Part shown: positions 1 through 34,409 of the stretch, piece by piece | How positions within the stretch are numbered: position 1 is the stretch's first letter | Layout of the letters: each line of letters starts with the position of its first letter | IMG/VR virus record: IMGVR_UViG_3300020438_002496 | Span: 1 to 36,411 of that record | Source: a virus | Length of the DNA: 36,411 nt | Strand: one strand, 5' to 3' | Program-made: the position numbers and the translations under genes | Notes under the pieces: generated by a model | The model's input: the letters and a program-made list of their open reading frames with translations, nothing else | Told to the model about the DNA's origin: nothing | Databases searched by the model: none

Positions 1-1259
1 CCTACTCCCACTTTAATATCTGTTAGTATATTCTTTTCTTCGTTTGTCGTTACTGGCATGGGCCTTCCTTGAATTCCCATCCAAGTATTATTTCTTTGTA
101 CGCCTACATGGTTTAGGACAGTCCACCTTAAATCGGCTGGTCCGCACTCTCCGTCTTGTGGCACTTCTGCATTAGCGTCAGAAGTTCCGATTACACGACC
201 GGTATCGTAGCCTCCACCAGCAAACATCAAAGGAACACTACCGCTCCAGTGGTCACGTCCAGCATTGCCGTTAATTTTAGGTGTTCTACCAAATTCTGTA
301 GCGACAACAAGGAGCGTTTTATCAAACAGGTCTCTAGCTTCTAGCTCGTCCATCAGGAGGCCAACATACCTATCTAATGTTACCTGACGGGTGTTGAGAG
401 CATTGACAATGCCGTTGTGCATGTCCCAGCCACCGTACTGGATGTTTACAAATTTAGCACCATTCTGTATGGCTCTAACTGCGGACAAGGCATCCTTGCC
501 CAACTGATCACCCTTAAACGTCTCGTACTTTGCATCTTCTTCTATTCTAAAGGTTTCAGCCGCCTTGCCTGTAATAGCAGTTACAGCTTGATTTTGAAAT
601 TCGCTCCAACCCTTACCTTGCTCTTTGATGCGTGAATGTTTTTCTACAAGATCTAGTAGCGATTTTCTAGCTAAGAATTTGTCTTTTTCCATCTTTAACT
701 GCAAGTCGCCAACGCCGTCTTTGCTGGCTTCATAACCCATATACTTTTGTCCCATCCAAGCAGAGCCATCACCTTCTATTTTATTCATCTTGATGTACGT
801 TGGTAGTCCGTGAGGGTAAGATACTGGGCCGTAGTATCCAGCCACCATAGCTCCATAACTAGGATAGTTCTGTGAGCTTCCGCCTTGATTTCTTTCTCCG
901 CCAACAACCCAGTGAGTAGCGGTCTGATGATTAGAGTCTTTATGGGCAAAACTTCTGACGATATTAACTTTGTCAGATCTTTTTGCTATTTCTTTGAAGA
1001 GGCCACCTATTTTAACCGTAGGTATCTTTGTTTCAACAAAGCCCGTTGCAGAGCGTCTTTCGACGGGAGCATAGGGGATAGGGTTAAATGTCTCTATGTG
1101 CGTAGCTCCACCGCCTAGCCATAGAAAAATCACGCTTTTCTCGTTTTTAGTTACTCTGGGGGAGTACTCATCAGCGTATGAGATACCAACATTGTTGGAG
1201 GCTAAGTAAGCTCCACCAAGAAAACTAGTGCCATAAGTTAAAAACTCGCGTCTCTTCAT
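1..1259 (-). CDS. DUF1501 family protein with Tat signal (C-terminus cut by window edge)
   Basis: The ORF starts at ATG 1259 and runs off the window, giving about 419 residues. The N-terminus begins MKRREFL, a twin-arginine motif, followed by a short hydrophobic stretch and a possible cleavage after SYA, so export by the Tat route is predicted. Just after it comes VIFLWLGGGATHIETFNP, the typical opening of DUF1501 proteins, which have an alkaline-phosphatase/sulfatase-like fold. Later segments (for example VATEFGRTPKINGNAGRDHW) also fit the family. The usual family length is 400-480 residues, so little is missing. DUF1501 proteins are extremely common in Planctomycetota and their reaction is mostly unknown. 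Finding one beside phage replication genes suggests capture from a planctomycete host. The family call is firm; the function is open. Confidence 0.85.
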   Translation of the reverse strand, partial: MKRREFLTYGTSFLGGAYLASNNVGISYADEYSPRVTKNEKSVIFLWLGGGATHIETFNPIPYAPVERRSATGFVETKIPTVKIGGLFKEIAKRSDKVNIVRSFAHKDSNHQTATHWVVGGERNQGGSSQNYPSYGAMVAGYYGPVSYPHGLPTYIKMNKIEGDGSAWMGQKYMGYEASKDGVGDLQLKMEKDKFLARKSLLDLVEKHSRIKEQGKGWSEFQNQAVTAITGKAAETFRIEEDAKYETFKGDQLGKDALSAVRAIQNGAKFVNIQYGGWDMHNGIVNALNTRQVTLDRYVGLLMDELEARDLFDKTLLVVATEFGRTPKINGNAGRDHWSGSVPLMFAGGGYDTGRVIGTSDANAEVPQDGECGPADLRWTVLNHVGVQRNNTWMGIQGRPMPVTTNEEKNILTDIKVGV

Positions 1260-1286: not shown

Positions 1287-2324
1287 TTACCCCGGCGCTT
1301 CATAAAATCCTATATTAAACCCTTCCCTAGTGCAATCTTCGATGGTTTTTTCCATCCCATGCTCTTTTAAGTGCTTCTCTATATATATACACATATTATC
1401 TTCCGTTTCTGGCCATTTGTTTTTACAAAAATGACAGAGATACTTGCATTTCCAATGTTTTCTTGCGTTATCTAAGGGTTTGGGAGCATTATTTTGTCTA
1501 ATTTCTTCAACTCTATTTTTTAACATCCCCAGAAACCTGTCTTCATCGCTCTTGTCAAACATTAGGGAGAAAGGTTTAGGGTCTGGATTACCCTCTATAT
1601 CTTTATAAAAGAATATGCTCATAATCCTATTTGGGAACTCTGGATAGAGCTTAGAGATAGCGTAGAAGTACAGAAGTAATTGAGCGTCATTCTCAAGTTT
1701 TTTGTAGTCCTTTTCTTCTCCAGTAGCCCAATCCATACGGCGACCACTTTTCCAGTCAATCACTTCTATTGTGTCATCGTTTATTTTTGTTACAAGGTCG
1801 ATTGTCCCCTTGATGGCAAGCTGTCCTTCAACCTTTTCCCCATTTAATTCATACTCAAACTTAGCCCAATCTTCCTCAATTGGTATATCGAAATGTGGCT
1901 CAGGATGATGAATATTCCTAAGTCTGGGATCAAACTGCCCATCGCTATGGGTTAAAAAGGTCCATACCGTCTGAGCTACCTCTTTCCTTTCTTTTGGGGT
2001 AAACTTATGTTTAGAGTTCTTTGCGTAACAATCTATAGATATTTCCACTAATTCATTTACAAAGTCGTCAGTGTAAAGTTTATCCTTGTGGATTCTGATT
2101 TTTCCAGCGGCATCATCATCTACCACTAAATATTTTTTTCTTGGATTGTCTTGCTGGAACTTTTTAAGTCCGGCTAGAATCTCCATAGCCTTGTGAGCCA
2201 TCGTCCCCATGTCGGCTTTCTTTCCGCTATCAGACTGATGTCCAAGGACGTAGGTTATAAAATACTGCATCTCACAGTATGAATAATTATTATAACTTGA
2301 GCTTCTTACGTATGTAACTAACAT
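1287..2324 (-). CDS. RecB/Cas4-like PD-(D/E)XK nuclease with likely Fe-S cluster
   Basis: The protein has 345 residues. The N-terminus resembles the PDDEXK_1 family (RecB, AddB and Cas4-like exonucleases): GTMAHKAMEIL gives the motif I histidine, and GTIDLVTKINDD followed by EVIDWKSGR gives the D...DxK catalytic core. One cysteine near the N-terminus (C17) and a cluster near the C-terminus (C293, C297, C300, C312) match the split arrangement that holds a 4Fe-4S cluster in AddB and Cas4. The start is supported by AAAGGAAT just upstream, which also carries the stop of the preceding gene. It is the last gene of the replication operon, so a role in recombination or end processing is likely. No Cas genes or CRISPR arrays are nearby. 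Confidence 0.8.
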   Translation of the reverse strand: MLVTYVRSSSYNNYSYCEMQYFITYVLGHQSDSGKKADMGTMAHKAMEILAGLKKFQQDNPRKKYLVVDDDAAGKIRIHKDKLYTDDFVNELVEISIDCYAKNSKHKFTPKERKEVAQTVWTFLTHSDGQFDPRLRNIHHPEPHFDIPIEEDWAKFEYELNGEKVEGQLAIKGTIDLVTKINDDTIEVIDWKSGRRMDWATGEEKDYKKLENDAQLLLYFYAISKLYPEFPNRIMSIFFYKDIEGNPDPKPFSLMFDKSDEDRFLGMLKNRVEEIRQNNAPKPLDNARKHWKCKYLCHFCKNKWPETEDNMCIYIEKHLKEHGMEKTIEDCTREGFNIGFYEAPG

Positions 2325-25162: not shown

Positions 25163-25684
25163 TTAAAATTTTTCAAACATTTCTGCGCTCTCTATTAATA
25201 TAGTATTATCTAGATTTGTTTTCGGTACGTGTTTAATTATCATTCTGCTACCTATTTCTGACAACACTTGGTTGTACTTCTTAGTCCATATATCTCCCTT
25301 GGGCGATGACAGGTCTGAAAAGTATATTTCATGAACCCCACATTGCCATAACATTTGTAGGCAAGATGTACATGGGGGAGCTGTTATATAAGCTCTTGAA
25401 CCCAGCGTTGACTTTCCTTCTCTTGCGCAATTATAAATAGCATTAGCTTCTGCGTGTATCATGAATGGGTATTTGTCTGGTCTTTCGGTTGGTAAACTAC
25501 GATCATTTACATCTCTCATGAAACCATTATAACCAGTGGCAATAGATGTTTTATTTTTTACTAATACACATCCGCATTGCGTTTGACTATCATGACTTCT
25601 TCTTGACCAGAGTACAGCTTCTGAGAAAAATATATTATCCCAGTCATCAGCTTTGTGATCTGTAACCATTATATGAGACAGCAT
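25163..25684 (-). CDS. dCMP deaminase
   Basis: The protein has 173 residues from the ATG at 25684 (AAAGGAA upstream). The zinc site is clear: HAEANAIYNCAREG (HAE) and ITAPPCTSCLQMLWQCG (PCxxC). QTQCGCVLVKNKTSIATGYN and GFMRDVND are further family features. It deaminates dCMP to dUMP, feeding thymidylate synthesis, although no thymidylate synthase is seen in this window. A strong terminator lies only 15 bases upstream of its start, so expression may need read-through from the tmRNA unit or an unseen promoter. Confidence 0.9.
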   Translation of the reverse strand: MLSHIMVTDHKADDWDNIFFSEAVLWSRRSHDSQTQCGCVLVKNKTSIATGYNGFMRDVNDRSLPTERPDKYPFMIHAEANAIYNCAREGKSTLGSRAYITAPPCTSCLQMLWQCGVHEIYFSDLSSPKGDIWTKKYNQVLSEIGSRMIIKHVPKTNLDNTILIESAEMFEKF

Positions 25685-25698
25685 TTCATTTCCTTTTG

Positions 25699-25733
25699 TA
25701 AAAACGGCCAGCTTTGGTAACAAGGTGCTGGCC
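25699..25733 (-). terminator. Rho-independent terminator after the tmRNA
   Basis: GGCCAGC and GCTGGCC form a 7-bp stem around a 14-base loop, followed on the minus strand by GTTTTTAC. It closes the tRNA-Glu/tmRNA transcript. Confidence 0.85.
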
Positions 25734-25740
25734 AAACCCC

Positions 25741-26035
25741 GTGACTCCCGAAGGAATCAAACGGCTACCTAAGCAGCCATTGCGTAATTCTCTACGCCAT
25801 TTAAAGTTGTGATAGATTTTTAACGTAGCCCTTCTATCAACTACGACATGCAATTATTATATCCGCAACCAGTCGATACCATTACGCCCCCATGTTTTTT
25901 TTGTTGGGGTGATCAGTTGAACCTAAAATTAATTAGATGCGAAATTTAACCCCAATCTAAGTGGAGGCGGGGAGAATCGAACTCCCGTCCTGCATTGATT
26001 CAATAACAACGTCTACATGCTTATGCCCGAAGGCA
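25741..26035 (-). ncRNA. ssrA: Circularly permuted (two-piece) tmRNA
   Basis: In the direction of transcription, the acceptor piece comes first. TAAGCATGTAGAC is followed by a T-arm (GGGAG, loop TTCGATT, CTCCC) and acceptor strand CGCCTCC with A73 at 25962. After an intervening segment (25892-25960) the coding piece begins at 25891 with GGGGGCGTAATGGTATCGAC, as in tmRNA 5' ends. The two acceptor strands pair over 7 bp with G3-U70, the alanyl-tRNA synthetase signal. A pseudoknot (CGTAG/CTACG with TGATAG/CTATCA, 25810-25845) precedes a tag frame at 25769-25801 reading NGVENYAMAA then TAG. CCA is not encoded. Exact mature ends are uncertain. Its role is rescue of stalled ribosomes and tagging of proteins for proteolysis. 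Confidence 0.9.
25904..25955 (-). repeat. tRNA-adjacent hairpin element, copy E1
   Basis: It lies in the intervening segment of the permuted tmRNA, seven bases after the acceptor 3' end. Outer stem TTGGGGT/ACCCCAA, internal loop strands TAAATTTCGC and TCAACTGATC (10 nt each), inner stem ATCTAA/TTAGGT. The same architecture recurs at 34827-34879 and 36148-36198. Confidence 0.75.
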
Positions 26036-26037
26036 GT

Positions 26038-26109
26038 ACCCCGTAGGAGAATTGAACTCCTGTCTTCAGGATGAAAACCTGATGTCCTAGTCCACTAGAC
26101 GAACGGGGC
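26038..26109 (-). tRNA. tRNA-Glu (TTC)
   Basis: The cloverleaf is complete: acceptor GCCCCGT against ACGGGGT (a G1-U72 wobble), D-arm TCGTCTAGTGGACTAGGA, anticodon loop TTTTCAT giving TTC, and T-arm AGGAG/CTCCT with loop TTCAATT. CCA is not encoded. The tmRNA acceptor piece begins within a few bases downstream, so the two are probably co-transcribed and separated by processing. Confidence 0.93.
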
Positions 26110-31316: not shown

Positions 31317-31517
31317 TTATTTATTCTTGTTATCTCCCTTGTTTTTATTGTTCTTATAAAAAAACTTAAACTGTTTATAAATTGATTTTATCTGTTCAAA
31401 CGCTTCTTCTTCTGTTATTTTACCGCCTGTCTCAAAGTCACATATCATAGCTATGTGGATGTTGACGGCCTTGAACGGGTCTGAGTACTTATTAAAGTCT
31501 ATTTTAATCTTAGACAT
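31317..31517 (-). CDS. Small unknown protein
   Basis: The protein has 66 residues from the ATG at 31517, which overlaps the dipeptidase stop as TGATG. It has an alpha/beta part (INIHIAMICDFETGG-like segment, TEEEAFEQIKSIYKQFKFF) and a low-complexity Lys/Asn tail. No family is recognised. Confidence 0.65.
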   Translation of the reverse strand: MSKIKIDFNKYSDPFKAVNIHIAMICDFETGGKITEEEAFEQIKSIYKQFKFFYKNNKNKGDNKNK

Positions 31518-32752
31518 CATTTCCATCCTTCTTTTAAAATTCTTAGTGCATTTCCCCCTAATATTTTAGATATAACTTTGTCTGAGTATTTTGGTTTTCC
31601 TAGCCCTCTAGTTAAACATGATAAGTACCTTGTCAGTCTTGGTAGCTCTGACATGTCAGTGATTTCGTCTGGAGGGTCTGTGAAGCCATCGAAGTCTGTT
31701 CCAATTCCTACGATGTCTGAACCTCCGATACGCATTGCATGTTCTATAGTTCTCTCAATGTATTTCAATCCAAGAGGTGTGTCAATAGGGCTGATCCAGT
31801 AATTCATAAAAATAATACCAAGAACACCTCCATGTTGACTAAACCATTGTAGCTCCCAGTCGTGTAGGTTATATGGGTCTGGATTGATCTCAAATACTCC
31901 AGCGTGGCTACAGATAACTCTATTGGTTCTGTCTCCCACTATTTCATAAACTTCTGACCTAGCTTTTGGTGTGCAGTGTGCTACATCAATTACCATCTTG
32001 AGATCGCACATTCTTTCAACTACTGATTTGCCTATATCAGATAATCCAACATTCATGTCCCACGCACCCATAAGCTCTTTCCAGTTGTTTCTCTTAATTC
32101 CGTAGTTGGGATATGGAAAAACTGGGTGTGCAATTAGGTTGGGATAAAAGTGAGCTAGTGTCAGGTATGCCACGCCTCTTTCAGATAAATACTCTAAGTT
32201 CTGTAGTATCTCGGATTCTTTCACAGACATGTCGGTAGACATTTCACAATCAAAACCTTGCAGACTGTGGCCTCCCTCTACGGAGTGTATCAATGCGATG
32301 TCTCCGTCCCCAAGAATCTGCTGTAATTCTTGACCGTTTTTAGCAACACACACGGCTCTTTTATCTTCTTCTCCTTTGATTTTATTGTTGTACTCAGCTA
32401 CATGTTTCTCCATATCGTTAATCATATTAACTGTGGCATCAAAGTAAAATGGATCAAACACCCTTTTCTTTACCTCTGGAGATAGGGCTAAAGCCCATCT
32501 AACAAGGCTCTGGTCTTCTAACCATTCTCTCTCAGGTATGTAACAGGTTGAAAGGACAACATCTAGACCGCCCTTGTCAAGAAGTGGAAAGGTACTTCTC
32601 TGGCTCAAAGGCCAAAAAGCTCTCTTAAATAGTCCCGCTAAAAACTTAATTTTACTGGAAGACAAGTCTCTATCTAATAGAAACCTTTTCAGTACAGCGT
32701 GGTTGTGAAGGTCAATTACTGGTGAGCTATTATGTAAGTCTCTCCAATTCAT
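31517..32752 (-). CDS. Membrane dipeptidase-like metallopeptidase (M19, renal dipeptidase family)
   Basis: The protein has 411 residues forming an amidohydrolase-type TIM barrel. Metal-site segments are VIDLHNHAVL (H16, with H18 in place of the usual Asp), HSVEGGHSLQG (E159), VIDVAHCTPKA (H259), VICSHAGVFEI (H283) and VGIGTDFDGFTDP (D353). The M19 family cleaves dipeptides, including those with D-residues. There is no signal peptide, so it would act in the cytoplasm. An M19 enzyme is rare in a phage; it may recycle peptides or degrade peptidoglycan fragments. The HxH variant may change the metal or activity. Confidence 0.88.
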   Translation of the reverse strand: MNWRDLHNSSPVIDLHNHAVLKRFLLDRDLSSSKIKFLAGLFKRAFWPLSQRSTFPLLDKGGLDVVLSTCYIPEREWLEDQSLVRWALALSPEVKKRVFDPFYFDATVNMINDMEKHVAEYNNKIKGEEDKRAVCVAKNGQELQQILGDGDIALIHSVEGGHSLQGFDCEMSTDMSVKESEILQNLEYLSERGVAYLTLAHFYPNLIAHPVFPYPNYGIKRNNWKELMGAWDMNVGLSDIGKSVVERMCDLKMVIDVAHCTPKARSEVYEIVGDRTNRVICSHAGVFEINPDPYNLHDWELQWFSQHGGVLGIIFMNYWISPIDTPLGLKYIERTIEHAMRIGGSDIVGIGTDFDGFTDPPDEITDMSELPRLTRYLSCLTRGLGKPKYSDKVISKILGGNALRILKEGWK

Positions 32753-33500: not shown

Positions 33501-34409
33501 TTAGTTCAGTGCGTACATGGACTTGGCGTTCTTGAGATTTGAAGCACAGGCACGAATCGCGGTGTCCTTAGACTTGAGTTCGATGTCCCAGTCGTAGTCA
33601 TCGCTAAAAGGGAAGTCTACGGGCATATCTGCGTGAGCGCGTGGATTGGTTTTTTCGGGGTGTGACTCGCTGTAGTGGAACAGTGGTTTGCAAGGCCAAG
33701 TCTCTGCACACTCTAGGTAAGTGTTCTTGGATGATGGGTTGCACTTGTCATGAAGGTTGTCGTATGTGATTGGTAAGCTGATATACTTGAGCAGGTTATC
33801 TACGTTCCAGCACCCCTTGTCCTCGTTCTCTACAACTAGACGACTTGTAACTGACTCGTCGCACTTGGCAAGATTGGACATAAACCGAGTAGCGATGTCG
33901 CTAAGGTCTCCTTTGGTATTATTGATATGGATATTGATAGGGTTGTAGTAGCTACGCTCACAGCCTAGCTGATCCATAACCCAGCCGTGATGGTTGAGTT
34001 CTAGGATGGTCTTGTCTACTGACGCTTGATTCTCGCTGGCAAGCACGTTGAACTGGTCTGGGTGTGTAGACAGACGCACTCCCCAATGCTTGTTCTCCCA
34101 TACGATGTCGTTAAACGTGTCCATGATGGCTTCGTACTGAGGTACGTCTGAGATGTCGTAGCCGAAGTCAGGATGCGTTAGGACGGGGAACAGACTGCTC
34201 GATACACGATAACCCCAACGGTTCATCCAGCAGTGACAGATGGCCTGCTTGGTAACTTGTACATTGTTGAGCCAGCGTGAGCCTAGCTCATTGAGTGCGT
34301 GTGAGATGCTATGCTGACTACACAGGTCGTTAAAACGCTTCCACGTCATGGTCTGGAAGGCGTGATCTTGTTCTTTGAGTTCGTTACTGATGCAGCATAG
34401 ATTGTACAT
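33501..34409 (-). CDS. uvsE: UV damage endonuclease (UvsE/UVDE)
   Basis: The protein has 302 residues forming a TIM-barrel endonuclease that nicks 5' of UV photoproducts. The N-terminus YNLCCISNELKEQDHAFQTM, the metal-ligand segments LSTHPDQFNVLAS, NIHINNTKGD, LVVENEDKGCW and ITYDNLHDKCNPS, and HYSESHPEK are all in family order. It allows alternative excision repair without a photolyase. It has its own promoter at 34447-34474 and an SD (AAGGAT). Codon and base use look slightly more GC-rich than the neighbours, possibly a sign of separate acquisition. Confidence 0.9.
   Translation of the reverse strand: MYNLCCISNELKEQDHAFQTMTWKRFNDLCSQHSISHALNELGSRWLNNVQVTKQAICHCWMNRWGYRVSSSLFPVLTHPDFGYDISDVPQYEAIMDTFNDIVWENKHWGVRLSTHPDQFNVLASENQASVDKTILELNHHGWVMDQLGCERSYYNPINIHINNTKGDLSDIATRFMSNLAKCDESVTSRLVVENEDKGCWNVDNLLKYISLPITYDNLHDKCNPSSKNTYLECAETWPCKPLFHYSESHPEKTNPRAHADMPVDFPFSDDYDWDIELKSKDTAIRACASNLKNAKSMYALN

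Follow-up and report, generated by a model that had tools for sequence, protein, structure and literature searches.

The questions raised by this locus are whether a virus carries a circularly permuted tmRNA gene able to work in its host, which host this would be, and how a phage came by a two-piece form usually described from three bacterial groups. The stretch of DNA analysed, here called the window, is the IMG/VR record IMGVR_UViG_3300020438_002496, positions 1-36,411. A sequence-only reading had proposed a phage-encoded permuted tmRNA, and this was borne out when covariance models, including the permuted one, were run on the locus. A complete circularly permuted tmRNA gene is located at 26035-25706 on the minus strand, which corrects the strand of the earlier reading. 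The tmRNA_permuted model RF04321 matches 26020-25769 (-) over its full length in a search of the window (83.2 bits, E 1.1e-14; gathering score 47), and ARAGORN calls a tmRNA* (permuted) with the tag GVENYAMAA in a frame opening at GGC. The two halves of the standard tmRNA model RF00023 match separately and in permuted order, not in the 5'-then-3' order of a one-molecule tmRNA. The window tmRNA is a real variant and, judged from its sequence, probably a functional one.

The layout of the gene agrees with the earlier description in its main lines. The acceptor half lies 5' of the coding half, with an intervening segment of 70 nt (25961-25892) between them; CGCCTCC (25969-25963) and GGGGGCG from 25891 form a complete acceptor stem of 7 bp, in which the G3-U70 pair is invariant in 14 of 14 homologues, and the predicted processing points, A73 at 25962 and G1 at 25891, are exact as sequence positions. 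CCA is not encoded after A73, the next bases being CTT. A pseudoknot does precede the tag (PK1, 25845-25810), with a spacing of 11 nt to the resume codon. Likewise, the tag frame and its stop codon stand, but the first codon is GGC (25798-25796) and not AAT, and the ten-codon NGVENYAMAA is replaced by (A)GVENYAMAA. The “strong terminator” had to be given up, as its hairpin is stem S2 of an H-type pseudoknot (25742-25706) whose other stem shows compensatory changes. This hairpin has a long loop and is not listed by a terminator scan, and a U-run is found 3' of the pseudoknot hairpin; it may serve both as pseudoknot stem and as terminator. Around the tmRNA gene, a promoter scan of the minus strand showed nothing resembling a sigma-70 promoter. 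The features are collected in Table 1.

Table 1. Features of the window around the permuted tmRNA gene, and the host-signature gene near the contig end.
Feature	Coordinates	Strand	Basis
Gene for a DUF1501 protein, a host signature in the phage lineage; close to contig end	27..1139	-	PF07394, 210.6 bits
dCMP deaminase, downstream of tmRNA; ATG at 25684 the likely start	25163..25684	-	start from sequence
3' pseudoknot, H-type: S1 ACGGGGT/ACCTTGT, S2 GGCCAGC/GCTGGCC	25706..25742	-	covariation
Hairpin GATTCC/GGAGTC, missing from 5 of 14 homologues	25743..25758	-	homologue alignment
P5 hairpin, stop codon in loop	25761..25780	-	paired in 90% of cells, with compensatory changes
Tag reading frame GGC...GCT TAG = GVENYAMAA	25769..25798	-	ARAGORN and homologue tags
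PK1: S1 CGTAG/CTACG, S2 TGATAGA/TCTATCA	25810..25845	-	pairing in 14 homologues
Coding RNA, G1 at 25891 through end of 3' pseudoknot; starts GGGGGCG	25706..25891	-	
Intervening segment, 70 nt, 7-bp hairpin	25892..25961	-	
Acceptor RNA: P2 3' strands, T arm 25986-25970, CGCCTCC 25969-25963, A73 25962	25962..26020	-	
Short hairpin TGCC-TTCG-GGCA shortly before P2, probably the 5' part of acceptor RNA	26024..26035	-	sequence
tRNA-Glu(TTC), immediately upstream of tmRNA	26036..26109	-	same order in L101, L110, L111

An explicit structure with both pseudoknots was scored on an alignment of 14 homologues, from which three loci found by the exact T-arm pattern (L100, L102 and L103) were left out as clearly different tmRNAs. 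At the proposed pairs 94.4% of the cells are standard, and sliding one partner by 1-3 columns leaves pairing in only 34-45%. Two-sided changes are found at 32 pairs (82 cells), compared with 16.3 and 25.8 in shuffles, and both pseudoknots are included: PK1 has eight such pairs, and S1 of the 3' pseudoknot (ACGGGGU with ACCUUGU) covaries, C-G changing to U-A in four sequences and U-A to A-U or G-C in four. The acceptor stem, the T stem and both PK1 stems are paired in 100% of cells, while the hairpin at 26024-26035 is only partly kept in homologues (helices 1-2, 61-77% paired). The covariation supports a predicted molecule in which the acceptor and coding halves are joined through the acceptor stem and P2 pairing. 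Some members depart locally from this plan. The T loop of L097 and L108 is GGCAGUU/GGCAGUA-like in place of UUCGAUU with the stem kept, possibly reflecting altered recognition of the tRNA-like domain, and PK1 of L113 is interrupted by an inserted inverted repeat of about 80 nt. The family members L097 and L113 also carry long structured intervening segments with shared ends, CCACCAGAAGCACACYAC...GURGUGUGUUUCUGA.

The tag was likewise compared across the family and with candidate hosts. The triplet before GGC varies in the homologues (AAT, AAC, AGT or ATT), and from GGC, GTC or GCA onwards a nine-codon tag is kept in all aligned family members, ending mostly in ALAA, AMAA or ALVA and written with differing codons. 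In the window it ends in a hydrophobic degron followed by the stop (GVENYAMAA-TAG). Tags of nine codons also predominate in Planctomycetota (54 of 71) and Verrucomicrobiota (18 of 22), but occur in none of 84 bacterial permuted calls.

The tmRNA gene and its tRNA neighbours are conserved in related IMG/VR contigs of up to 167 kb. Scanning IMG/VR for UvsX yielded 80 loci at 70-92% identity and the exact T-arm pattern gave 11 loci; RF04321 matched in 25 of the 48 records screened, 20 of them above cutoff, several of the positive records having come by the T-arm pattern and not being of the window's lineage. In the 166.8-kb contig G019 (L111) the order is tRNA-Glu, tmRNA, tRNA-Ile, tRNA-Arg, tRNA-Leu, and the tag is identical to that of the window. 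Across 50,697 deposited phage records, the window tmRNA matches only about 30 nt of the T arm, and a structural-region protein of G019 adjoining the terminase has no match in deposited phages. Selection in the phage lineage is the best explanation for the persistence of the gene. A passenger, or a degenerating copy of a bacterial gene that was picked up by chance, could be argued from the intervening segment, which at 70 nt is 4-14 times longer in the window than in 13 homologues (5-17 nt) and might impair processing; no repeat of 25892-25961 was found elsewhere in the sequences compared. The conservation in many contigs, the covariation and the intact tags make either very improbable. As a separate observation, the window encodes a UvdE-like UV endonuclease (33501-34409) and an M19 membrane dipeptidase (31517-32752), both unusual phage cargo.

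For the host, two phage proteins were of little help: UvsX matches deposited phages at about 30% identity, and the large subunit of ribonucleotide reductase, which shares 55% identity with proteins of pelagiphages and cyanophages, is uninformative for host. The DUF1501 family (PF07394) is present in 26 of the 42 phage records screened, namely the window and 25 related contigs; there are up to four copies per contig, G019 has three tandem genes, and DUF1501 genes also lie at 15051-19532 in L358. For one copy, identity to Planctomycetota proteins reaches 68%, and matches of at least 50% identity occur in 22 of 149 Planctomycetota genomes compared with 3 of 145 Verrucomicrobiota genomes, one Verrucomicrobiota MAG carrying a protein that is 67% identical. 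The host is thus probably a member of the Planctomycetota, or at least of the PVC group, an assignment made from gene content. The suggestion that the permuted gene points to a different host is at odds with the DUF1501 genes and the tag format, which indicate Planctomycetota/PVC. RF00023 is above cutoff in 130 of 149 Planctomycetota genomes, nearly all of the matches being full-length, and since the sampled Planctomycetota carry one-piece tmRNA, the phage form differs from that of the host. A permuted tmRNA above cutoff was found in 1 of 392 sampled Planctomycetota genomes, on a contig of 9.2 kb; we rejected it as host evidence because it has phage-like proteins and an alpha-type tmRNA, and it is most likely a misbinned phage. 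The alternative offered in the sequence-only reading, a phage-borne lineage, is supported by the conservation of the gene among these phages, set against the one-piece form found in the phylum presumed to be the host.

Taken together, we consider it quite likely that a large aquatic dsDNA phage of Planctomycetota, possibly of another PVC phylum, carries a functional two-piece tmRNA, kept by selection, that would supply ribosome rescue and a degron in host format during infection. By analogy with other two-piece tmRNAs, RNase P would cut at 25891, the 3' end would be trimmed to A73 (25962) and CCA added, and the 70-nt segment would be removed, leaving the halves held by the acceptor stem and P2 pairing. 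The RNA would be charged by AlaRS via G3-U70 and brought to stalled ribosomes by host SmpB; translation would resume at GGC, adding AGVENYAMAA, of which the first A would be the alanine borne on the tRNA-like domain. Because the tag ends in MAA (in relatives, LAA or LVA), degradation of the tagged product by host ClpXP is likely, and the phage would thus supply rescue at a time of high mRNA decay and great demand on translation. Retagging of proteins by the phage tmRNA, as raised earlier, is plausible. A tblastn search with an E. coli SmpB query gave no SmpB in the window or G019, and the same query found SmpB in host tmRNA loci.

The RNA could instead act as a decoy that sequesters SmpB or AlaRS and inhibits host trans-translation without tagging. 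There is precedent, since the tmRNA of phage DS6A, which lacks a coding sequence, is reported to inhibit endogenous trans-translation when expressed in E. coli (PMC11915505), and forms lacking a coding sequence were also seen in other phage contigs that we examined. A decoy is less likely here because the tag frame is preserved: the frame, the resume context and the stop codon are kept across the family with differing codons and conserved A-L/M-A/V-A ends, and PK1 is kept too. We therefore regard a decoy role as improbable and retain rescue and tagging as the preferred function. Separately, two viral loci are too short for a usual tag domain and resemble the DS6A form: L115, at about 1720-1799 (-), 80 nt, with 65.6 bits on RF00023, and L511, at 519-630 (+), 112 nt, with 58.2 bits.

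The affinities of the permuted form are mixed. On the beta_tmRNA model RF01850 the window scores 61.2 bits, below the cutoff of 84, and true beta genes score 224-324 bits; on alpha_tmRNA (RF01849) it has 40.3 bits, below the cutoff of 50 that six other screened records reach, and on cyano_tmRNA (RF01851) 38.4 bits, below the cutoff of 70. The 3' pseudoknot with a CCUUGUUACCAAAG-type loop is a beta feature that is present in the window and in other phage permuted genes, but the motif was found in none of 75 Planctomycetota tmRNA loci. The standard-type PK1 motif is present in 14 of 14 family members, 50 of 64 Planctomycetota and 13 of 17 Verrucomicrobiota, and in 0 of 77 bacterial loci with the permuted pattern. 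The nearest tRNA-like domains outside the family are those of Planctomycetota standard tmRNAs (V_L278 in this comparison is a family member). Judged from these sequences, tag length, PK1 and the tRNA-like domain resemble those of the host, while gene order and the 3' pseudoknot resemble those of betaproteobacterial two-piece tmRNA.

One way to account for this is that a one-piece tmRNA of Planctomycetota type was captured and circularly permuted in the phage, giving another two-piece lineage. The distribution of PK1 and the nearest identities are in line with such an event, as is a first tree that placed the family with Planctomycetota standard tmRNA (SH-aLRT 99). However, the backbone collapsed in a larger tree to which Verrucomicrobiota and other standard tmRNAs were added, and no grouping put to the AU test was rejected (family with beta, p = 0.475; family with alpha, p = 0.371); for these reasons the claim of an independent origin was lowered to a rival. 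The 3' pseudoknot shared with beta-type and other phage permuted genes also speaks against it, as does the occurrence of the standard-type PK1 in other phage permuted genes, for example L306. We consider an independent permutation possible but rather doubtful. The family may instead belong to an older lineage of permuted tmRNA in phages and have become host-adapted or mosaic. Gene order and 3' pseudoknot would then have been inherited together with beta-type permuted genes, and the tRNA-like domain, PK1 and tag would have been kept from a PVC-type tmRNA, adapted to it or acquired by recombination with it. Most members match the beta model over its full length at 61-84 bits, mostly above the alpha and cyano models, and the PVC-like 5' domain and tag occur alongside this match; yet the scores stay under the beta cutoff of 84 and no recombination breakpoint was demonstrated. 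To this origin we give a little short of an even chance.

A strict pattern for permuted tmRNA has hits in at least 120 stretches of viral contigs, and their tags differ widely. In a set of such loci (L239-L355), comprising roughly 100 or more viral contigs, tags reach 31 residues, e.g. AKDIDTAANNIVAFSRVLTREFARTSELATA. Mean identity is 0.55 among the sampled phage permuted genes and 0.84 among betaproteobacterial ones, the sampling being unequal. In Dechloromonas agitata (G063, L153; C1:1035746-1036471) two adjacent full-length beta_tmRNA matches lie on opposite strands, possibly a duplicated and inverted gene. The phage lineage described here takes a split tmRNA, its tag host-like in length and style, toward a phylum whose sampled genomes have the one-piece form. 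Given the breadth of the pattern hits and the diversity of the phage genes, a role of phages in spreading, and perhaps in originating, permuted tmRNA becomes a testable question. One may speculate, with considerable reserve, that phages are a reservoir in which the permuted form diversified and from which it was carried across phyla into one-piece hosts, the tag being fitted to the host degron, and that at least one bacterial two-piece lineage (beta) was acquired from phage; the window family would then be an instance of this in phages of Planctomycetota, or else would have been permuted independently.

The novelty implied at first was overstated, as a two-piece tmRNA had been reported for the Methylophilales phage Melnitz and 53 two-piece tmRNA structures among 18,146 phage genomes (PMC9004378), and a 2025 database holds 79 unique phage tmRNA sequences (PMC11915505). 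In the open-licence literature searched we came across no description of a permuted tmRNA from a phage of Planctomycetota. Melnitz and related marine phages resemble the window in having a permuted ssrA in a large phage that is not of the host's own type, but the Melnitz gene is reported to be alphaproteobacterial in affinity and to have a glutamine riboswitch (PMC9004378), whereas the window gene is nearest to the beta subtype model and has a nine-codon tag, and its likely host belongs to a phylum with one-piece tmRNA. The Maribacter phage Panino (PP540027) also has a permuted tmRNA (62.2 bits), which is annotated, and a host that belongs to none of the three bacterial groups classically known for the permuted form, but its sequence and tag are different. 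Unannotated permuted tmRNA genes were seen in Achromobacter phage JWDelta and Caulobacter phage CcrRogue (L509, L510). The betaproteobacterial two-piece tmRNA (RF01850) shares the gene order and the 3' pseudoknot with a CCUUGUUACCAAAG-type loop, but has the ten-codon tag ANDERFALAA and another PK1 region, and the window reaches only 61.2 bits on its model. The one-piece tmRNA of Planctomycetota and Verrucomicrobiota (RF00023) shares the PK1 motif, nine-codon tags (GANNYAMAA, ADENLALAA) and the nearest tRNA-like domain, but is unpermuted, and the beta-type 3' pseudoknot motif was not found in it. Phage-borne split tmRNA is already known; what is new is the phage lineage, its link to Planctomycetota, the joining of a beta-like 3' end to a 5' domain and tag that are PVC-like, and how widely the form occurs in viral contigs.
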